From: Verrucomicrobiaceae bacterium
Lineage (GTDB): Bacteria > Verrucomicrobiota > Verrucomicrobiia > Verrucomicrobiales > Verrucomicrobiaceae
NCBI GenBank assembly: GCA_019694165.1
Contig: JAIBCL010000026.1
Span: 1 to 64,000 of the forward strand
Length of the DNA: 64,000 nucleotides
Direction of reading: 5' to 3'
Shown here: piece by piece, positions 12,028-47,337 of the stretch
Position numbering within the stretch: position 1 is the stretch's first letter
How the letters are laid out: the number at the start of each line of letters is the position of its first letter
Notes under the pieces: generated by a model
Seen by the model: only the letters and a program-made list of their open reading frames with translations
What the model was told of the DNA's origin: nothing
Database searches by the model: none
Made by a program: the position numbers and the translations under genes

Positions 12028-12401
12028 CGCGGGATTGGCTTGCCATTTACACTTGGCAGTTCGTCACGACTCAGAACGCATTGCTTTGCGCCGCCAAGAA
12101 TGCGCTGCACAAACCCACCACTGATGGACACACTGAGACCAGGGCGCTGTGGGAGTCGCAGCATCGAAATGTCATGAGCCTGCATGAGGCTACCGACCTT
12201 TGTCGTCGCTGTCATCGCATGGCCCCCTTTTGCTTCTACAATGGAAACACCTTTTCGGCGATTATTCGCGACGTCATCATGCGTTTGCGCCTTCCTGCCG
12301 ATCAAGCCTTCGTCATTCGCAGTCTCGCCGGTCACATCGTTGCTGGTGTCGCCACGGATGAGGAGGTGCGGGCGTTTCGTGAATTTAGCGAGAGCCTGTG
12401 A
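12024..12401 (+). CDS. hypothetical protein with CxxC, second gene of a two-gene cassette
   Basis: A 125-residue soluble protein with no signal peptide or membrane segment. It has a cysteine-rich centre, LCRRCHRMAPFCFYNGNTF, which could bind a metal (CxxC plus His and a later Cys), followed by helices (DVIMRLRLPADQAFVIRS, GHIVAGVATDEEVRAF). The start overlaps the 67-residue gene by four bases. It ends eight bases before the convergent stop of the cytochrome gene at 12410. Family not recognised; the well-formed coding frame and coupling make a real gene likely. Confidence 0.65.
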   Translation: MTRDWLAIYTWQFVTTQNALLCAAKNALHKPTTDGHTETRALWESQHRNVMSLHEATDLCRRCHRMAPFCFYNGNTFSAIIRDVIMRLRLPADQAFVIRSLAGHIVAGVATDEEVRAFREFSESL

Positions 12402-12409
12402 GTGGAATC

Positions 12410-15172
12410 TCATGACCGAGTGTGGGTGAACGGATAGCTCTTCACGATCTCGATGATCACACGACTGAGTTTCCAGCCATCCGCTTTCGCGGCTTGCTCG
12501 ATCTGTTCAACGACGGGCATGTCATAGAGGGCCAGAGGTCGGGCGAGGGCGTAACTCAGCAGATGCTCGATGAAGCCGCGGGTGAACTCGTGCGGCTGTT
12601 TCATGAGATTGCCTTTGAACTCTGCGGGGCCGTCGAAGGGTTGGCCGTTCCATTCGCCTTTGGCATCGACTGGCACGGTTGCATCCATCTCGCGCCACTG
12701 GCCGACGGGATTGAAGCGCTCCAGTGCGAATCCCGGTGGATCGAGCCGGATATGGCAGGAATAGCACGCAGCCTTGTTCCGATGAGCCTCAAACTTCTGC
12801 CGGATGCTCATCTGCTGCGCGGCTTCCTTGGTGTCATTCTCAATGGCGAAAGCCACCTTCGGCTCCGTCGGTGGACGGTTGAAGATGGTCTCCAGTAGCC
12901 ACGCTCCGCGCTTCACCGGGCTCGTGCGAAAGGGCAGCGAAGTGACGATCATTGGTGCGGCCATGCTCATAAAGCCACCGCGACGAGCATCGGTGAGTTT
13001 CACGCGCTGCCAGTTGCCGGACTTGTCATTCTTGGTCTTGAGTTCGCGATTGCTGTTCGTGGCGACTGCGGCTTCGCCTTCATCAGCGCCGAGTCTGAGG
13101 CCACACAAGCGAGCGAGCTGGGGATTCAGCCAGGTGTAATCGGCGGCGAGAAAGTCCATGATGCTGCGGTCCTCGACCATCACCGTCTCAAAGAGCATCA
13201 GTGCCTCCGTGAGCGTCGCACCATGGAGCGTGCTCTTGCCTTGCGGGCCGGAGTAGAAGCTCTTGAAGAGATCGCGGTCAGGCTTGGCGGTATAGAGCTG
13301 ATCAAGACGCAACCACTGCACGGCAAATGACTCGCTGATTTCCCGGCAGCGTGCGTCCTTCAGCATGCGGCGCGCCTGCGCTTCCAGCGTGGTAGGTTCA
13401 TGCAGACGACCTGCCTTTGCCAAATCCAACAGCTCGTCATCAGGCGTGGAAGACCAGAGAAACAACGCCAGTCGTGTCGCCAGCTCCGCATCCTCTAAGG
13501 GCGATACTTTGGCACCGCCGGGAATGCCATTCGCTTCGACATAGAGAAACGAGGGGGATGCCAGCACGGCAGCGATAACCTGCCGCATGGCGTCGGCTTC
13601 AGACGCCTTGGATTTCTGTGCTGCGTCGTAGAGATTGATCAGGCTGCGCAGCTCTTCGTCCGAGGCGGCACGGCGGAAGGCACGTTCGGTGAAGGCTGCG
13701 ATTCTTTCGGAGGCAGGCACTCCTTTCTGCTGCGGAGGCGGTGAAACAGACACTCTTGTCTGTTCTCCGACTGCTGGAGCCTTGGGCTTCTCTTGAGCAG
13801 ACAGGAGTGTCTGCCTCACTCCGCTGGTGATGACCGCGATGTCATCCAGCACGAGGTAGTCGCCTTTCAACTGCGAGCCATCGACCACCAGCTTCTTGAT
13901 TCCTTCGCCTGCGTGCGCGGAGAACGAACAAAACGTGGAGCCAGCCTCTGCCTCGGCCATGTCGAGCGTCATCATGGTTTCAGTCGCATCGGTGAGCACC
14001 GCGGTGAGCTTCACGCTGCCGCTCTGTCCCTTGCGACCCATCACGCAGAAGCCCAGATGCTCCACTGCTTCGTCGAGGTCACTGCTGACGATGTCAAAGG
14101 TCAGCTCATAGCTCGGCTTGCCCTTGTCTTTGTTGGTGAGGATGGCGGGAGCAGATGCGGCCTTCACTGTGCTGAAGCTGGCGATCCACAGGTCGGCATT
14201 CGGATTGATCGTGACGCTGCGCTCTCCGAATGAACCCTTCAAGAGCCCGCCCTTGCCAGCGATGACTTTGTTCGCGAGCGGCTGCGACATGTCGAAGACT
14301 CCACCGCGTCCTTCGGTGAATGCGGTTTCGATTTGGCGGCGAAAGTCAGCGAGCGGGATGCTGTTGTTTTTTGCCTCGGCTAGAGCTGCCACATCGGGCG
14401 CGAACTTGCCAGCTAGCGGGACGATTGGGATGGAGTTTTGCTTCTTCGAGGCAACAGACGGGAGCGTCTGTTTCACGCCAATGAGATCCGCGAACACCCG
14501 GCTGCGTGCGGGAAGTTCCGGCGCGTTCACGATCTCCTGTGCGGCAGCCAGATACTTCTCCAGCATGAGCGGCGAGAAATCCATTGCATCACCCCGATTG
14601 CGATAGCCATGCTCGGCGCGGTTGTCGCCCGGCAACCCCAATTGCGGACAAAGCACCGGGTATTTGCTGCCATATTCCCGCATCACCACCTTCACCTCGG
14701 CGGGCATCTGTCCGCTGGATGGATTGAAATAGCTCTTGTCGGTAATGGGCAGGCGCTCAGGGAACATGAACACATCCATCGGCAGCGCGAAGAGGTCGCG
14801 GATGGCGTTGTTGTATTCGAGCCGCGTCAGACGCCGCAGGGCTGGCTTCCCAGGATCACGCGCACCCAGCGCCGCATCGGGACGGGCAGCGATGTCCATG
14901 ATCCACGCCATCAACTCCTGCCGCTGGGCCTCCGTCGGTTGCGACTTCTGCTTCGGCGGTGGCATTTGATGCGACTCGACCTTCTCATACACGCTCCGCC
15001 AGATGGATCGGTTCTTCATCACAGCGGCTTCGTCAGTGAACCCGGAGAGATCGAGATCGCCCTTCTTCGCATCGCCGTCATGGCATTCGAGGCAATGCGC
15101 ATCGAGGAACGCACGGAAGTCGGCGGCACACGCCACGGAGGGAAGAATGACCGCGAGCACCAGGGCCTTCAT
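12410..15172 (-). CDS. secreted DUF1587/DUF1595/DUF1592/DUF1588/DUF1585 cytochrome-type protein
   Basis: A 920-residue exported protein. The chosen ATG (15172) gives a signal peptide MKALVLAVILPSVACA and overlaps the SGNH gene by four bases; the longer in-frame start at 15445 is rejected. Residues 18-100 are a planctomycete-type cytochrome c domain with one haem site, CLECH (Cys27, Cys30, His31). DUF1587 follows (LTRLEYNNAIRDLFAL), then an inserted beta-sandwich of carbohydrate-binding type. Next come DUF1595 (FTERAFRRAASDEE), DUF1592 (LATRLALFLWSSTPDDELL), DUF1588 (RRGGFMSMAAPMIV) with a second CxxCH (CYSCHIRLDPPGF), and DUF1585 at the end. It is thought to be a periplasmic or surface redox protein working with DUF1552; the reaction is unknown. 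Palindromic repeats at 13741 and 14453 are read through in frame. Confidence 0.92.
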   Translation of the reverse strand: MKALVLAVILPSVACAADFRAFLDAHCLECHDGDAKKGDLDLSGFTDEAAVMKNRSIWRSVYEKVESHQMPPPKQKSQPTEAQRQELMAWIMDIAARPDAALGARDPGKPALRRLTRLEYNNAIRDLFALPMDVFMFPERLPITDKSYFNPSSGQMPAEVKVVMREYGSKYPVLCPQLGLPGDNRAEHGYRNRGDAMDFSPLMLEKYLAAAQEIVNAPELPARSRVFADLIGVKQTLPSVASKKQNSIPIVPLAGKFAPDVAALAEAKNNSIPLADFRRQIETAFTEGRGGVFDMSQPLANKVIAGKGGLLKGSFGERSVTINPNADLWIASFSTVKAASAPAILTNKDKGKPSYELTFDIVSSDLDEAVEHLGFCVMGRKGQSGSVKLTAVLTDATETMMTLDMAEAEAGSTFCSFSAHAGEGIKKLVVDGSQLKGDYLVLDDIAVITSGVRQTLLSAQEKPKAPAVGEQTRVSVSPPPQQKGVPASERIAAFTERAFRRAASDEELRSLINLYDAAQKSKASEADAMRQVIAAVLASPSFLYVEANGIPGGAKVSPLEDAELATRLALFLWSSTPDDELLDLAKAGRLHEPTTLEAQARRMLKDARCREISESFAVQWLRLDQLYTAKPDRDLFKSFYSGPQGKSTLHGATLTEALMLFETVMVEDRSIMDFLAADYTWLNPQLARLCGLRLGADEGEAAVATNSNRELKTKNDKSGNWQRVKLTDARRGGFMSMAAPMIVTSLPFRTSPVKRGAWLLETIFNRPPTEPKVAFAIENDTKEAAQQMSIRQKFEAHRNKAACYSCHIRLDPPGFALERFNPVGQWREMDATVPVDAKGEWNGQPFDGPAEFKGNLMKQPHEFTRGFIEHLLSYALARPLALYDMPVVEQIEQAAKADGWKLSRVIIEIVKSYPFTHTRS
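13741..13819. repeat. paired palindromic repeat inside the cytochrome gene
   Basis: Two inverted copies of a unit of about 22 bases, GTGAAACAGACACTC... on the left and its near reverse complement ending at 13819. Each copy is itself a hairpin CAGACA-N4-TGTCTG. Copies differ by T/C in the loop and at the flanking bases. The pair falls in an interdomain linker and is translated as RQTLLSA...EQTRVSV. Confidence 0.85.
14453..14476. repeat. single palindromic repeat unit inside the cytochrome gene
   Basis: One unit of the same family with compensating changes in the stem: ACAGACG-GGAG-CGTCTGT followed by TTCAC, so the outer flank GTGAAACAGACG is conserved in reverse complement. Translated in frame as KQTLPSV. 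The paired changes (A to G on one arm, T to C on the other) suggest that the hairpin itself is maintained. Confidence 0.75.
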
Positions 15173-16140
15173 TTCGCCTCCTCCGCTCGTTTCAGATTTT
15201 GCTGCAACTCGTGCGTCGTCTCCCACGCGACCGTCTCGAGATACGTCGCGGTCGCCGCATCCACCGTGGCCGTGAGCTTCATGGACATGTTCTTGAGCAT
15301 CCACTTCGGCATCTTTGCTTGATAAGCATCCGACTTGAAGGCGGCAATGCGCGCAGCCTCCGTTGCTTTCTCCGCATCGGTAGCTGCCTTCGGCAAGGCG
15401 TGCGGCCACACCGGATACGTGCGCGGCAGTTTGCCGATGGGCCACTCACCTGTGAGCGCGGCGTAGAAGCAAGCGAGGTTCAGGAACATGCCCGTGTCTC
15501 CGGGATGAGCGCTATCCTTGGGATGCTGCAAGGCAAGCGCCGGCCTCTCGCGATATACTCGCGCCCATGCCGTGCTGCATGGCGCGAAGAGCCGGATTTT
15601 GTTCCTCACCGCGAGATCAAAGATGCGCTTTCTTCCCTCGGTTTCACGTTCGGATTTGCCCCAGCCCATCTCATAGAAGATCGGCTCGCCGCCTGCCGCG
15701 CGGATGGCTTCACAATACTTCGTCACGGCCTCCGCGTGCGCGTTGCCCGTGCCGGTCGGGTCATCATCGCCCATGATGAAACGGCAGACTGTCTGAAGCA
15801 CAACGAACGATGGCTTCTCCTCACGAATCTTGTCGAGGAACGTCTGCCCCGGCTTCACGCCGTATTCGTATTTGTTGAAGCCCGGCTCGGCATAGACGCG
15901 GATGTCGCTGCCGCTGCGCCCGACAATCTCCGGCACAATCTTGGTGCCGACATGCCCGATGAATTTCCCATCTACAACCTTTGCCGCCTCGCGGGGAAAA
16001 TCGTTCCAGTAGGTGCTGCTGCTGCCTGCGAAGAGCAGGGTGAGGGGTGGTGAAGCAGACACTCTTGTCTGCTCAGAAGGCTCCGCAGACAGGAGTGTCT
16101 GCATCACGATGAGAATGCCAATGAGGATGCTCGCTTTCAT
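15169..16140 (-). CDS. secreted SGNH/GDSL-like hydrolase
   Basis: A 323-residue protein with a signal peptide (MKASILIGILIVMQTLLSA). The mature part opens with LLFAGSSSTYWNDFP, which fits the block I Gly-x-Ser of SGNH hydrolases. VVLQTVCRF and IFYEMGWG are the central strands, and HPKDSAHPGDTGMFLNLACF carries the DxxH pair (Asp-Ser-Ala-His) of block V. Such enzymes remove acyl groups, often acetyl esters, from glycans. It overlaps the genes on both sides by four bases each, so it is fully embedded in the second sigma-factor operon. A palindromic repeat pair sits exactly at the signal-peptide/mature boundary. Confidence 0.82.
   Translation of the reverse strand: MKASILIGILIVMQTLLSAEPSEQTRVSASPPLTLLFAGSSSTYWNDFPREAAKVVDGKFIGHVGTKIVPEIVGRSGSDIRVYAEPGFNKYEYGVKPGQTFLDKIREEKPSFVVLQTVCRFIMGDDDPTGTGNAHAEAVTKYCEAIRAAGGEPIFYEMGWGKSERETEGRKRIFDLAVRNKIRLFAPCSTAWARVYRERPALALQHPKDSAHPGDTGMFLNLACFYAALTGEWPIGKLPRTYPVWPHALPKAATDAEKATEAARIAAFKSDAYQAKMPKWMLKNMSMKLTATVDAATATYLETVAWETTHELQQNLKRAEEAK
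16049..16107. repeat. paired palindromic repeat at the signal-peptide end of the SGNH gene
   Basis: Two inverted units as at 13741, here with a short spacer: hairpins at 16054-16071 and 16085-16102 with flanks GTGAAG on the left and CATCAC on the right. In the gene they are read as MQTLLSA...EQTRVSA, the same frame as the pair in the cytochrome gene. Confidence 0.85.
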
Positions 16141-17711
16141 GCCTTGCCAAGTTCTCGGAGTGTGGTGCCAATGGCTTTGAGGTTCTCGATGCGCATCTCG
16201 TCGTATTCGCGTGAGATGAGGATGCCGCTGGCTCCGGCGTTGAAAGCTTGTTTGACAGCGGCCTGAAGAGAGACGGGCTGCGTGACGAAGCGTTTTTCTT
16301 TGGGGCCGCCGGGTCTACCGCTGTGGATGTTGTTCGGCACATCGACGCCGATGCCGGGAACCACGGCGCACTTGCCCTGCACGACATCCACGATGCGCTT
16401 CGTCTCGATGCCGACGTATTCGGGGTCCATGCCCCGCGAGGCGAGCTCGTCGAGCTTCGGTTGCAGCTTTGGATCGTAGCCGCGCATCGCGTAGTGCATC
16501 TCCAGCACTTGCTGAAGGCTCAACTCGGCCAGCGGTCCCTTCTTTAGCTCCTCCAGATGATACGCGAGCAGGCGCGGCGCGAGGATGTCGTGGTAGAGGA
16601 TCGGTTTGATGAAGTCCGTGTAGGGCGTGACATCCGCATAGCTCCACTGCGCGAGATAAAGCGCATCCCACGACGTGTTTTGGTGATCAAAGTGGCGGCC
16701 CACTGGCGCACTCGGTCTCGCGGCCTTCACCAGCGCGTGCGTTCGCCTGCCTTGCTCCTCGAGCGCGACCCGCCATTGATAATCCCACGCCAGAACCTCG
16801 GGAAACTTCATCAGCACACGCAGCACATGGGTAAAGATGCCATCGGCAGGCGCGGCGCCGCCCGCGCGCACCTTCGTGATGAGCGCGTGCAACTCGGCGA
16901 ATCCCTCGCGAGCACGAGCGATCCGAACGCCCTCGCGCTTTGCCCTCTCTTCGCAGTGCGTGCAGAAACAAAACGGCACCGCGCCTTTCCACAATAGACT
17001 GGACAGCGGCCCCGCTCGCTCGGCTCCCCACTGATAGCCATCGAGCGGATACGAGCGCAGCGTGTCATCCACGAGCGCATCCCAGAAGCCAATCCACTCG
17101 GGGTTGTTGCGACAAGGCTGACTCGAGACCTTGCCATCAAGCCCCACCGACATCGCTCGCTCGAAGTTCGGCACGCGACCACGCAACTCATTGCTGCCCG
17201 GCTCCAGAATCCGGGCATAGAACTTCAGCCCGCGCTTCCGAACGGCTCCACTCACCTCAGCGAACAAATCGCGGTCACCGTATTCTTCATCCGCCGACGG
17301 CTTCAGCACGCGCAAGGAAGTGTTCTTGAAGGCTGAATCATGATGCTTCAGCCAGACCCGCGTGATCTTTCTGCCGCGCTCATCTTTGATCGGCACACCA
17401 TGATCCGCATACACCTCAGGCGGACGACTGTGCGCCGCGTAGTAGCTGTGGCTGTAGAGGAAGATCGCATTCGCCCGACAGGTCGATTGAATCGTGTCCA
17501 GGCAGCGCTCCATGCCCTCGTCCAGCAAGCTATGGCCCGCGATTTGGATGCCGATGAGTGGCTTCGATGTCACCGGTTGCTCTGCAAGCGCAGGTGCAGC
17601 GATGGCAGCAGATGCGGCTTGGATGAAGCGGCGACGGGTAGTGACACAGACACTCTTGTCTGTGGCCTTCTTCAATAAACAGACAGGAGTGTCTGTGCCA
17701 CGGTGAGTCAT
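16137..17711 (-). CDS. Tat-exported TIM-barrel protein with CxCxxC motif (putative glycoside hydrolase)
   Basis: A 524-residue protein. The ATG at 17711 overlaps the FecR gene stop (ATGA). The first 24 residues come from a palindromic repeat pair; a Tat leader TTRRRFIQAASAAIAAPALA follows. The body looks like a TIM barrel: IGIQIAGHSLLDEG, NAIFLYSHSYY, GLKFYARILEPG, DGYQWGAERAG, then FCFCTHCEERAKREG with Cys248, Cys250 and Cys253, and ISREYDEMRIEN at the end. Asp224 and Glu231 are possible active-site residues. It resembles the broad GHL-type group of putative glycosidases but no numbered family was recognised. Context suggests action on the same substrate as the SGNH and cytochrome proteins. 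Confidence 0.75.
   Translation of the reverse strand: MTHRGTDTPVCLLKKATDKSVCVTTRRRFIQAASAAIAAPALAEQPVTSKPLIGIQIAGHSLLDEGMERCLDTIQSTCRANAIFLYSHSYYAAHSRPPEVYADHGVPIKDERGRKITRVWLKHHDSAFKNTSLRVLKPSADEEYGDRDLFAEVSGAVRKRGLKFYARILEPGSNELRGRVPNFERAMSVGLDGKVSSQPCRNNPEWIGFWDALVDDTLRSYPLDGYQWGAERAGPLSSLLWKGAVPFCFCTHCEERAKREGVRIARAREGFAELHALITKVRAGGAAPADGIFTHVLRVLMKFPEVLAWDYQWRVALEEQGRRTHALVKAARPSAPVGRHFDHQNTSWDALYLAQWSYADVTPYTDFIKPILYHDILAPRLLAYHLEELKKGPLAELSLQQVLEMHYAMRGYDPKLQPKLDELASRGMDPEYVGIETKRIVDVVQGKCAVVPGIGVDVPNNIHSGRPGGPKEKRFVTQPVSLQAAVKQAFNAGASGILISREYDEMRIENLKAIGTTLRELGKA
17641..17701. repeat. paired palindromic repeat at the start of the Tat TIM-barrel gene
   Basis: Hairpins at 17646-17663 and 17679-17696, with inverted outer flanks GTGACAC and GTGCCAC. 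Here the units are translated in a different frame from the other copies, as TDTPVC...TDKSVC, immediately before the twin-arginine leader. Confidence 0.85.
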
Positions 17712-19018
17712 AAGCCAGGCTCCGATTTCAGTTCAAAACGCACCACCGTGAGCTTCGTGTCTGTCTGAAGAGACGAGATCAGCGCCGACGTGATGATGTT
17801 GCCAACGGGCGACAGATGTTTTGGAGATAGCGGCTTGAACGCGCTCACAGGAACCGCCACATCGCACCAGCCATCGGCGTCGGGCTTCAATTCACTCCCG
17901 TCGACCCTTGCCTCGAAGTTGCCTCCGTATCCGCCACTCGTCTTTGATGTGAGCAGCATGATTTGGAGCGATTTGTTTTGAGTCTGCTTCAGCCGGTATC
18001 GAATCACGCTCTTGTCCCTCACCATCAGCGAGAGCGGGGGCACGAGCTGTGCCGTCCTCACGGAGATGCCAAAATGGGTGACAACCTCCCCGGATGCCTT
18101 GCGCGAGGCCACATAGGGACGCGCCATCATGCAGGCGCCATCTGAGAATCCACGCCAGTCACGTGGGGCCATGGTGTGGGTAAAATCAAAGCGCCAGTCG
18201 GCAAGCGGTTCTGGTGTGGTCGTGGAATTCAACTTCAATCCGCTGTCGAGAGATGCGACGGCGCTGCTTTTAGCCGGCACATCAATTGTGCTGCCATCGG
18301 CAAGACGTTTGAGGTTCACGAGGCCTTCGTCCACCTTCAGCAGAGTATCCTCGCTGCGTGCGGCCAGATTGAAGACGGTCCCGACCACCCGCGCCTCCGC
18401 GCTGGCTGTGCGCACCAACATCGGTTTGTCCTTTGGCTGCGGCTTCACCTGCGCAGAGAGCGATCCCTTGCGCAACACGAGCAACTTCTGCCCGTTCTCT
18501 GAGAACGACAGCTCCGAATCTCCGCTCAGGTTGAGCATGGTGCCATCGCGAAATCGAAGCGAAGCCGAAGTCGCCTCACCCACCGTTTCAATGGTGCCAG
18601 CCTTTAGTTGCTCCCCGATGGCTAGATCCGTTCGCCACTTGCCATCCTCACTCCACGAAATGGTGCCCGAGGCATCAACCAGCGCGAGCACCCGAACCTC
18701 CCGCGAGCCTACCCAAAACCAGCCTGCGGCAAGAAGCGCCAAGACCGCTGCCGCTGCCATAGGCGGACGCCACGCAAACCAGCGCGATGCGGGAGACACC
18801 ACCCGCTTCGTCTGCGGAGAAGCTGCCGCCGTGGCCCATTGCCGAACCTCGCGGCGTTTCAACGAATGCCGAAGATCACTGTGCAACAGCGCGCGATCCG
18901 CCAGATACGCGACCGCCTCGGCGTCGCCCTCGATCTGCGCCATCAGGTTGGCGCATTCCACTTCCGGCAGCGCGCCGTCCAGCATCAGGTCAATGAGTTG
19001 TCGTTCGGTGTCGTTCAT
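17708..19018 (-). CDS. FecR-domain membrane regulator (anti-sigma partner)
   Basis: A 436-residue protein starting MNDTERQLIDLMLDGALPE, chosen because its ATG follows a perfect Shine-Dalgarno and overlaps the sigma gene stop. Residues 1-60 are a short cytoplasmic helical domain. A membrane segment lies near residues 85-105 (MAAAAVLALLAAGWFWV). Residues about 110-270 form a FecR domain (WRTDLAIGEQLKAGTIETV, ASLRFRDGTMLNLSGDSELSF, VLRKGSLSAQVKPQ, VVGTVFNLAA, VDEGLVNLKR). The last 150 residues are a beta-sandwich, perhaps ligand-binding. It probably controls the ECF sigma factor encoded just upstream in response to an external signal. Confidence 0.88.
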   Translation of the reverse strand: MNDTERQLIDLMLDGALPEVECANLMAQIEGDAEAVAYLADRALLHSDLRHSLKRREVRQWATAAASPQTKRVVSPASRWFAWRPPMAAAAVLALLAAGWFWVGSREVRVLALVDASGTISWSEDGKWRTDLAIGEQLKAGTIETVGEATSASLRFRDGTMLNLSGDSELSFSENGQKLLVLRKGSLSAQVKPQPKDKPMLVRTASAEARVVGTVFNLAARSEDTLLKVDEGLVNLKRLADGSTIDVPAKSSAVASLDSGLKLNSTTTPEPLADWRFDFTHTMAPRDWRGFSDGACMMARPYVASRKASGEVVTHFGISVRTAQLVPPLSLMVRDKSVIRYRLKQTQNKSLQIMLLTSKTSGGYGGNFEARVDGSELKPDADGWCDVAVPVSAFKPLSPKHLSPVGNIITSALISSLQTDTKLTVVRFELKSEPGL

Positions 19019-45756: not shown

Positions 45757-47337
45757 ATGACATCATACTTCGCCGCGCCTCACGGCGCGCAGCGCATTGG
45801 ACTGCGGCAGCCCTGCTGCCGCTTTCCCGCAGCCAGCCGTGCTGGCACCGGACCTCTGAAATACGCCGCGTCGTCCGCGCGTCGCTCCCTGCTCGCGCTT
45901 GTCACGGCGTGCTTCGCTTTTGCTCCGGCGCATGAAACCTTCGCTGTGACGTGGACCTCGTTCGCCATCGACACCTTTGCCACCAGTGCCTTCCGCGCCA
46001 CCGCGCTGGCGCATCTGCCTGACGGACGATTCGCCTACGGCGTGGCCGGGCAGTTGTTCGTGCAGAACTCCTTCGGCACGGCTTCGAAGACGGTGGTGCC
46101 CGTCGGCGCGCTCGTCCTCGATCCTTCCTTCATCGCCGTGCGCGATGGCGGAAGCGCGATCGTCGGCCAGGGCGGCTACGCGGCCACGTCGAATGTGTAC
46201 TCGTTCAATCCATCACTCCCGGCATCGGGCGTGAGCACCACGCCTCTCGCCGCCCCACAGAACTATGCGGGCGTTTACTGGAAGCATCCTGTTTCACTGC
46301 GCGAGGGCTGGCTCGTCGGCGGCAGCAACGGCGTCTTTGCCGACAACAACGTCACCTTTGTCTCACTCGATGGCACGAAGGTCGGCGCAGTCACCGGCTC
46401 CGTCAGCGCCTTCAGCGGCGGCATCGCCACCGATGCGGCGGGGAATCTGTATGCCGCCACCTACGACATCGATTTCAACACGTTCGAGCCCACGCCTGAT
46501 GCGAACCGCGTTTTGAAATTCACCGCCGCGCAGGTCGATGCCGCCGTCGCCGCCATCATCGCTGGAGCACCTGCTCCGGTGCCGGTGTGGGCTTCGACGT
46601 TCATGTATCAGTTCGACAGCACGTCGAACATCGCCGTCGATTCGCTCGGCCGCGTGTGGGCCACCGGTTTCTCGGTGAACCATCTGCAGGTCTTCGATCC
46701 CGCCACGCAGAGCATGAGCCGCATCGTGCCGCAGCACGGCTCGTTTCCGGCGGGCACCGACGTGCTCTACACCGTCCGCGACTTTACGCGCTCCGGCGCG
46801 GGCTACGTGGCGTTTCTCGCACAGGACGAGAATGGTGCGGCGGGCACGAATGTGTACACCGGCTACGCGACGACGGCGAGCATCGTCATTCCTCCCGTCG
46901 ATCAATGGCGCGCGCTGAACTTCGGTGTGAGCACTCTTGCGCTCGCAAACGAGTCCTCGCTCTGGGGACCGCACGCCGATCCTGACCGCGACGGAGTGCC
47001 CAATCTCATCGAGTACGCCAGCGGCACTCCGCCCCTCGGTGCCAGCGTCACTCCGATCACGACGGGCGTGCAGGGCGGCTCGCTGCGGTTCAGCTTCGTG
47101 CGCGATCCGCTGAACACCGATCTGACATATGTCGTCGAGGTCGCGGGCGCGCTCACCGCAGGCGCGTGGCAGGAGATCGCACACAGCACCGGCGGCGCGT
47201 CCACAATTTCATCCGGCATCGGCGCGGCGGGCGTGAGCGAGGCACCCGAAGGCCCTCGCGTGCGCGTGACCGTGACCGACCCGCTCACTGGCACGGGGCG
47301 TTTCGCCCGGCTGCGCGTGATTCTCACGCCTCCCTGA
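45757..47337 (+). CDS. secreted beta-propeller-like protein with calcium-binding DxDxDG motif
   Basis: A 526-residue protein. The ATG at 45757 is preferred over a GTG at 45685; a basic tail precedes the export segment RRSLLALVTACFAFAPAH. Residues about 65-380 contain repeated short strands (LAHLPDGRFAYGVAGQLF, GWLVGGSNGVFADNN, GGIATDAAGNLYAATYD, NIAVDSLGRVWATGF) of NHL or propeller type. Near residue 405, HADPDRDGVPNLIEYASG is a dockerin/thrombospondin-3-like calcium loop, commonly followed in this phylum by a C-terminal beta-domain as here (LRFSFVRDPLNTDLTYVVEV). Likely a cell-surface or secreted protein of unknown role, paired with the next gene nine bases away. Confidence 0.72.
   Translation: MTSYFAAPHGAQRIGLRQPCCRFPAASRAGTGPLKYAASSARRSLLALVTACFAFAPAHETFAVTWTSFAIDTFATSAFRATALAHLPDGRFAYGVAGQLFVQNSFGTASKTVVPVGALVLDPSFIAVRDGGSAIVGQGGYAATSNVYSFNPSLPASGVSTTPLAAPQNYAGVYWKHPVSLREGWLVGGSNGVFADNNVTFVSLDGTKVGAVTGSVSAFSGGIATDAAGNLYAATYDIDFNTFEPTPDANRVLKFTAAQVDAAVAAIIAGAPAPVPVWASTFMYQFDSTSNIAVDSLGRVWATGFSVNHLQVFDPATQSMSRIVPQHGSFPAGTDVLYTVRDFTRSGAGYVAFLAQDENGAAGTNVYTGYATTASIVIPPVDQWRALNFGVSTLALANESSLWGPHADPDRDGVPNLIEYASGTPPLGASVTPITTGVQGGSLRFSFVRDPLNTDLTYVVEVAGALTAGAWQEIAHSTGGASTISSGIGAAGVSEAPEGPRVRVTVTDPLTGTGRFARLRVILTPP

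Follow-up and report, generated by a model that had tools for sequence, protein, structure and literature searches.

In-frame pairs of REP hairpins in genes of Verrucomicrobiaceae, and different REP families at the same gene positions

The stretch of DNA analysed here (64 kb, hereafter the window) is contig C39 of a 7.8 Mb genome in 66 contigs (G000). It contains seven palindromic units of the form GTGnnnCAGACACTC(C/T)TGTCTG; six form three inverted pairs and the seventh stands alone, and all seven sit in frame within three adjacent minus-strand genes arranged end to end; both strands bear units (Table 1). A preliminary description of this DNA had reported palindromic units at four loci, mostly as inverted pairs, lying within coding sequence and adding no stop codon, and we find all of them, with no stop codon added by any unit. 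The reading frames are also as it described them: two of the dimers encode QTLLSA..QTRVSA, the single unit is read in the same frame (QTLPSV), and the dimer in the gene with the Tat-type leader encodes TDTPVC..TDKSVC.

Table 1. Hairpin units, their host genes and RAYT-bearing loci. Positions without a contig or locus prefix are those of the window.
Feature	Position	Strand	Basis
REP unit, dimer 1 left arm (GTGAAACAGACACTCTTGTCTG)	13741..13762	+	
REP unit, dimer 1 right arm (GTGAGGCAGACACTCCTGTCTG as minus-strand sequence)	13798..13819	-	
Probable decayed third unit beside dimer 1 (CAGGCACTCCTTTCTG, two mismatches)	13714..13729	+	
Lone REP unit, compensated stem CAGACG..CGTCTG (GTGAAACAGACGCTCCCGTCTG)	14455..14476	-	
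REP unit, dimer 2 left arm	16050..16071	+	
REP unit, dimer 2 right arm	16086..16107	-	
REP unit, dimer 3 left arm	17641..17662	+	
REP unit, dimer 3 right arm	17680..17701	-	
Host gene 1, planctomycete-type cytochrome c protein, 920 aa	12410..15172	-	
Host gene 2, secreted protein, 323 aa	15169..16140	-	
Host gene 3, Tat-type leader (RRRFIQ), 524 aa	16137..17711	-	
Dimer host, PheT, B5 domain	C50		Pfam
Dimer host, Ser/Thr kinase activation loop, between DFG and APE	C19 (L245, G000:C19:17245-17316)		Pfam
Dimer host, Type ISP restriction enzyme, C-terminal domain (Type_ISP_C)	C14		Pfam
Dimer hosts, DUF7133 proteins	C17, C41, C3		Pfam
Dimer host, DUF6797/plastocyanin protein	C32		Pfam
Stand-alone RAYT of the same genome	near G000:C50:107270-108003	reverse	
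leuS with nested RAYT, CP1 region	L024:46-3189 = G000:C22:232267-235410		
Eco57I-type methylase ORF with RAYT	L210:2-3601		
Eco57I-type methylase ORF with RAYT	L164:4573-7998	minus	
Eco57I-type methylase ORF with RAYT	L071:1479-3251		

The first host gene has the Pfam domains PSCyt1, DUF1587, DUF1595, DUF1592, DUF1588 and DUF1585, with dimer 1 in the linker just ahead of DUF1595 and the single unit behind DUF1587. In the second, dimer 2 encodes the end of the signal peptide (MKASILIGILIV-MQTLLSAEPSEQTRVSAS-PPLTLLFAG), and the orthologues are the same protein without the insert, reading MRLLTLFLFFASLAQADENALTLLFAG at this position. The third gene has dimer 3 downstream of its start codon and upstream of the RR motif; no orthologue of this gene was found in the neighbourhoods examined, and neither the 323-aa nor the 524-aa protein has a Pfam match. 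The suggestion that the units fall at places tolerant of extra residues is borne out for a linker, a signal peptide whose gene has orthologues lacking the insert, and an N-terminus ahead of a Tat motif.

Six exact 12-base palindromic cores are present in the 64 kb, against approximately 0.004 expected from base counts. A pattern search of the window allowing three mismatches gave 21 matches and shuffled sequences gave 24.6, and since this count is no higher than in shuffles, the signal is confined to units that are exact and paired. Scans for promoters and terminators found nothing exceeding shuffles, and an Rfam scan of 12400-18000 returned a single sub-threshold match, distant from the units, and none above gathering score. 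Elsewhere in the window, a degenerate hairpin pair (CGGCAGCCCTGCTGCCG / CAGCCAGCCGTGCTGG) at 45806-45846 is in frame in a 551-aa ORF and encodes the peptide RQPCCRFPAASRAG; a similar peptide is encoded at G000:C61:220091.

Counting of pairs over 23 genomic units defines a stem of 7 bp, in which columns 6-12 pair with columns 17-23. All 161 of 161 stem cells are paired, four pairs are changed on both sides, and shuffles never score as high. The copy that the preliminary description placed at 14453 has a compensated change (CAGACG..CGTCTG). The stem is preceded by a tag in which GT is invariant, the third base is G or A, and the fourth is mostly A in the copies of this genome, so that these mostly read GTGA/GTGG or GTAA rather than the canonical GTAG. 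Tags in other genomes include GTGG and GTAG, and families tagged with GTAG hold the same sites.

The census of the whole genome is based on pattern and covariance searches, together with 864 kb read directly. The pattern search finds 14 exact cores forming seven inverted pairs, and the covariance search finds 27 units (E < 1e-3): the three window dimers, dimers on C3, C14, C17, C19, C32, C41 and C50 (at C50:82263), single units at 14455 and on C6 and C23, and four units around a RAYT gene on C50. Every one of the ten clear dimers is intragenic and in frame, and the ORFs concerned are 222 aa or longer, the 222-aa one ending at a contig edge; the frame of a weaker pair on C20 is uncertain. REP dimers of other families met in the 864 kb read de novo are also mostly in frame in genes, where the coding fraction is approximately 0.87, and they include dimers in hsdS, in hsdM and in a second kinase activation loop, as well as one intergenic array. 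The location of the dimers in genes is as expected of elements that do not avoid genes when they insert and are afterwards selected for frame, a preference for genes not being demonstrated. A bias of insert length towards one class modulo 3, judged by eye, is not claimed here, as orthologous copies are not independent. The hsdS and hsdM genes belong to one type I restriction system (L375:14322-16867 = G000:C22:374322-376867), and each carries an in-frame AAGCGGCGTC..GACGCCGCTT REP dimer. The intergenic array (G000:C22:354279-354584) consists of a GGTAGGGCGGCTGGTCCTCCAGCCGCC hairpin repeat in about four tandem copies.

Beyond this genome, the CAGACA dimer is present in Ignavibacteria, Kapabacteria, Gemmataceae, Hydrogenedentes, Zixibacteria, Acidobacteria and others, and it was found in 19 of the 115 genomes searched, the genome of the window included. 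Across those genomes 24 of 41 examined copies are in ORFs of at least 200 aa, the control being 82% by this crude ORF criterion. In other phyla the dimers are mostly intergenic, with 22 of 87 in an ORF of at least 200 aa compared with 74% of control positions. The genome of the window is extreme in that each clear dimer is intragenic.

The occupied positions were compared among orthologues. At the site CRI|..|LEVL of the gene on C32 the CAGACA dimer is present in our genome and in G061, GGGCACTCYTGCCC in four genomes and GTAG-tagged CAGGCTTTCCAGCCTG in two; other orthologues hold GGAATTCC, ACGAGTTTTC, GCAGCCGTC or ACAGGCATCC dimers or a single GCAAGCTTC unit, or the site is empty. A dimer detector blind to family, run on 86 kb of coding DNA from the orthologues, reports 18 dimers, as against none in shuffles, and these dimers fall at just three alignment sites. 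The gene tree requires 14 changes of occupant and two separate origins of CAGACA, and a single vertical origin for the insert common to our genome and G061 is rejected on this tree. At column 231 of the L247 alignment (G000:C32:49688-49732) the same gene has a second in-frame dimer, of the CAGGCGTCTCGCCTG family, in our genome only; in the 29 orthologues a short QKPLPELIPQF takes its place.

Different occupants of one position are seen in other genes too. At the window dimer-1 site three lineages have CAGACA (our genome, G049 and G046), the sisters G040 and G059 (92% protein identity) do not, and G080 and G050 have a GTAG..TTGGGCTTTAGCCCAA dimer instead; the G080 orthologue has a second GTAG..TTGGGCTTTAGCCCAA dimer at the position of the window single unit. 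The same peptide is thus literally found at the same place across genera at this one window site, an outcome that the preliminary description had set against a mobile element, but recurrence explains the shared site better than inheritance because the sisters lack the insert and the silent sites of the flanks are near saturation. Two REP families in our genome fill the activation loops of Ser/Thr kinases between DFG and APE, one on C19 and one on C61 (G000:C61:382291-382399); the latter loop contains GTAGCCATCTCGCTCCGCGAGATG, and close homologues in G040 and G064 contain CAGACA.

Occupied sites lack host loop residues that are seen in empty orthologues (e.g. FEKPVQPLQGTPKAGG at alignment column 99), and therefore either the insertion was not clean or a deletion followed it. 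Many occupied copies share an ATTGA beside the tag, which empty copies lack, hinting that one REP may have replaced another in place. Inserts of the same family at the same site are mostly 0.93-1.00 identical compared with 0.58-0.81 at fourfold sites in the flanks, with a lower insert identity of 0.82-0.84 in variant L265. Identity above that of the flanks suggests constraint or homogenisation that would act at the level of the DNA.

Genes for RAYTs are present both as stand-alone genes and nested within others. There are 16 Y1_Tnp matches in our genome, and the RAYT at C50:107332 has GTAnnnCGGACACTC units on both flanks. It is the sole unit-flanked RAYT found there, and its units are the CGGACA variant, one compensated pair apart from the CAGACA unit; none in this genome is flanked by CAGACA. 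CAGACA units do flank RAYT homologues in L071 (Verrucomicrobiales), L164 (Terrimicrobiaceae), L210 (G086, same order) and L146 (Gemmataceae). The top NCBIfam model for the stand-alone RAYT is REP_Tyr_transpos (REP-associated tyrosine transposase), with a score under the curated cut-off, and the HUH and tyrosine motifs (NHVH, YIxxNP) are intact in this protein, in the RAYT within leuS, and in those of L210 and L164. Because the units flank RAYT genes, we conclude that they are REPs and that the pairs are REPINs.

The leucyl-tRNA synthetase gene on C22 (TIGR00396, 969 bits) contains a complete in-frame RAYT, bordered by AGGCGTCTCGCCT REPs that encode the peptides TGVSPV..TGETPVP; most relatives have a short loop at this position. 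Both halves of a leuS query match the C22 locus, and no second full leuS is among the matches listed for this genome. Eco57I-type methylases of three Verrucomicrobiota genomes (G086, L164 and L071) similarly carry an in-frame RAYT flanked by CAGACA REPs, with one and the same location in all three, and in L071 the nested RAYT itself bears another in-frame REP dimer.

We considered whether the inserts might be old and vertically inherited, with selection keeping the peptide or a hairpin, in RNA or DNA, whose effect is exerted at the gene, such as a pause in translation between two domains or ahead of secretion. The excess of insert identity over that of flanking fourfold sites would be expected in this case, and the sites themselves (domain borders, signal peptides and loops) would suit such a role. 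However, orthologues hold unrelated stems and peptides at one position, sisters lack the insert, and the tree calls for repeated changes; a selected peptide or a specific hairpin is not expected to be swapped for unrelated ones, although a generic effect of hairpins is possible. We therefore regard vertical maintenance as unlikely. Translational skipping of the hairpins, a ribosomal bypassing like that of mitochondrial byp elements, would leave the host proteins unaltered and could account for the occupation of essential genes (pheT, leuS) and of a kinase activation loop, but it creates no need for inserts to keep frame or to be free of stops, and all clear genomic dimers do both; we give it very little credence.

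Two classes of mobile element could also give rise to such sequences. An inverted pair with a variable spacer resembles a classical MITE, derived from a cut-and-paste transposon that has terminal inverted repeats and duplicates its target, but we see no target duplication, each of the two arms forms a tagged hairpin of its own, and the transposases flanked by units are of the HUH and not the DDE type, so that a MITE origin is highly improbable. The preliminary description had likened the units to the Rickettsia palindromic elements (RPEs), which are coding palindromes without a transposase. The resemblance holds for behaviour, with palindromes read through in frame in unrelated proteins, and RPE-4 and RPE-6 are REP-like (PMC3733652). 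It does not extend to kinship: the REP-like RPEs have a CGTC tag and are not known to flank a transposase (PMC3733652), whereas the units here have a GTR tag and flank RAYT genes. Membership of the RPEs is refuted by the lack of a CGTC tag and by hosts that are Verrucomicrobiota and several other phyla rather than rickettsial, and descent within an RPE lineage is scarcely credible.

The explanation that we favour, and hold with considerable confidence, is that the units are GTR-tagged REP hairpins of 7 bp in inverted pairs (REP dimers or REPINs) that are non-autonomous and spread by RAYTs, that the copies observed are in-frame survivors at tolerant sites, and that these sites are reused. A RAYT (TnpA_REP, an IS200/IS605-like HUH tyrosine transposase) is the probable mover, and would spread REP dimers that insert into coding and non-coding DNA alike. 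Where an insertion kept the frame within a flexible loop, linker, signal peptide or N-terminus it would survive, because none of the frames in which the units are read contains a stop, and it would be read as about 14-30 extra residues; the peptides are presumably translated and neutral. Selection would remove REP copies that are out of frame, and the few tolerant sites would then be struck again or overwritten by other REP families, such that turnover at a site may reflect fresh insertion or REP-for-REP replacement. A more far-reaching proposal is that genes of Verrucomicrobiaceae have docking sites a few codons wide, where the REP cassettes of successive RAYT families are swapped in place with the frame kept, that protein loops (kinase activation, aminoacyl-tRNA synthetase) have been rewritten repeatedly in this manner, and that some RAYT genes have become in-frame domains of essential or restriction-modification proteins. 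This is tentative, and we lean somewhat against it in this full form.

The usual view places mobile palindromes outside genes, since copies that land within them are purged. A single bacterial family here offers a natural series of empty, occupied and differently occupied sites in one gene, which allows measurement of which loops accept new sequence, of how REPs turn over, and of whether a RAYT swaps cassettes in place. The in-frame nesting of RAYTs in leucyl-tRNA synthetase and in Eco57I-type methylases indicates a way in which a selfish gene could gain protection, by residing within a gene that the cell cannot easily lose.

In-frame coding REP dimers are themselves of a known kind. REPs are usually extragenic, yet intragenic ones are known, and protein-coding GTAG REP dimers have been described, with the verrucomicrobium Opitutus terrae having the highest number (PMC3733652); the statement that no such element is recognised in this phylum is therefore incorrect. 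Our literature search, confined to open-access papers, turned up no report of family-wide turnover of REPs at the same site, of host loop residues being lost there, or of leuS or methylase genes that contain a RAYT.

The closest known elements are the GTAG-17, -19 and -20 families of Opitutus terrae, which come from the same phylum and are short tagged hairpins, often in dimers, belonging to a RAYT-linked superfamily; many lie within ORFs and code for 20-30 aa, and GTAG-20 mostly has GTGG (PMC3733652). Their consensus sequences are shown in a figure only, and the comparison with CAGACACTC covers the tag, the hairpin form, the pairing and the placing in ORFs (PMC3733652). In two Xanthomonas, different REPs are located at approximately the same recB site, a single case (PMC3733652), whereas here same-site exchange occurs in several genes and family-wide, with loss of host residues and with nested RAYTs. 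The BIMEs of Escherichia coli similarly consist of a REP and an inverted REP with a variable linker and are a substrate of TnpA_REP, but they are mostly intergenic and have other stems and another tag (PMC8266576). RPEs share the placing of palindromic DNA in frame at tolerant sites of unrelated genes, and differ in their CGTC tag, the lack of a dedicated transposase, and their sequence and hosts. The REPINs of Pseudomonas are present in numerous copies that are mostly extragenic, unlike the dozen or so dimers described here, the clear ones of which are all intragenic. The two systems are nevertheless alike in having inverted REP doublets that are dispersed by a RAYT, in Pseudomonas by direct report and here by our reading, and a RAYT bordered by its own REPs (PMC3116915).
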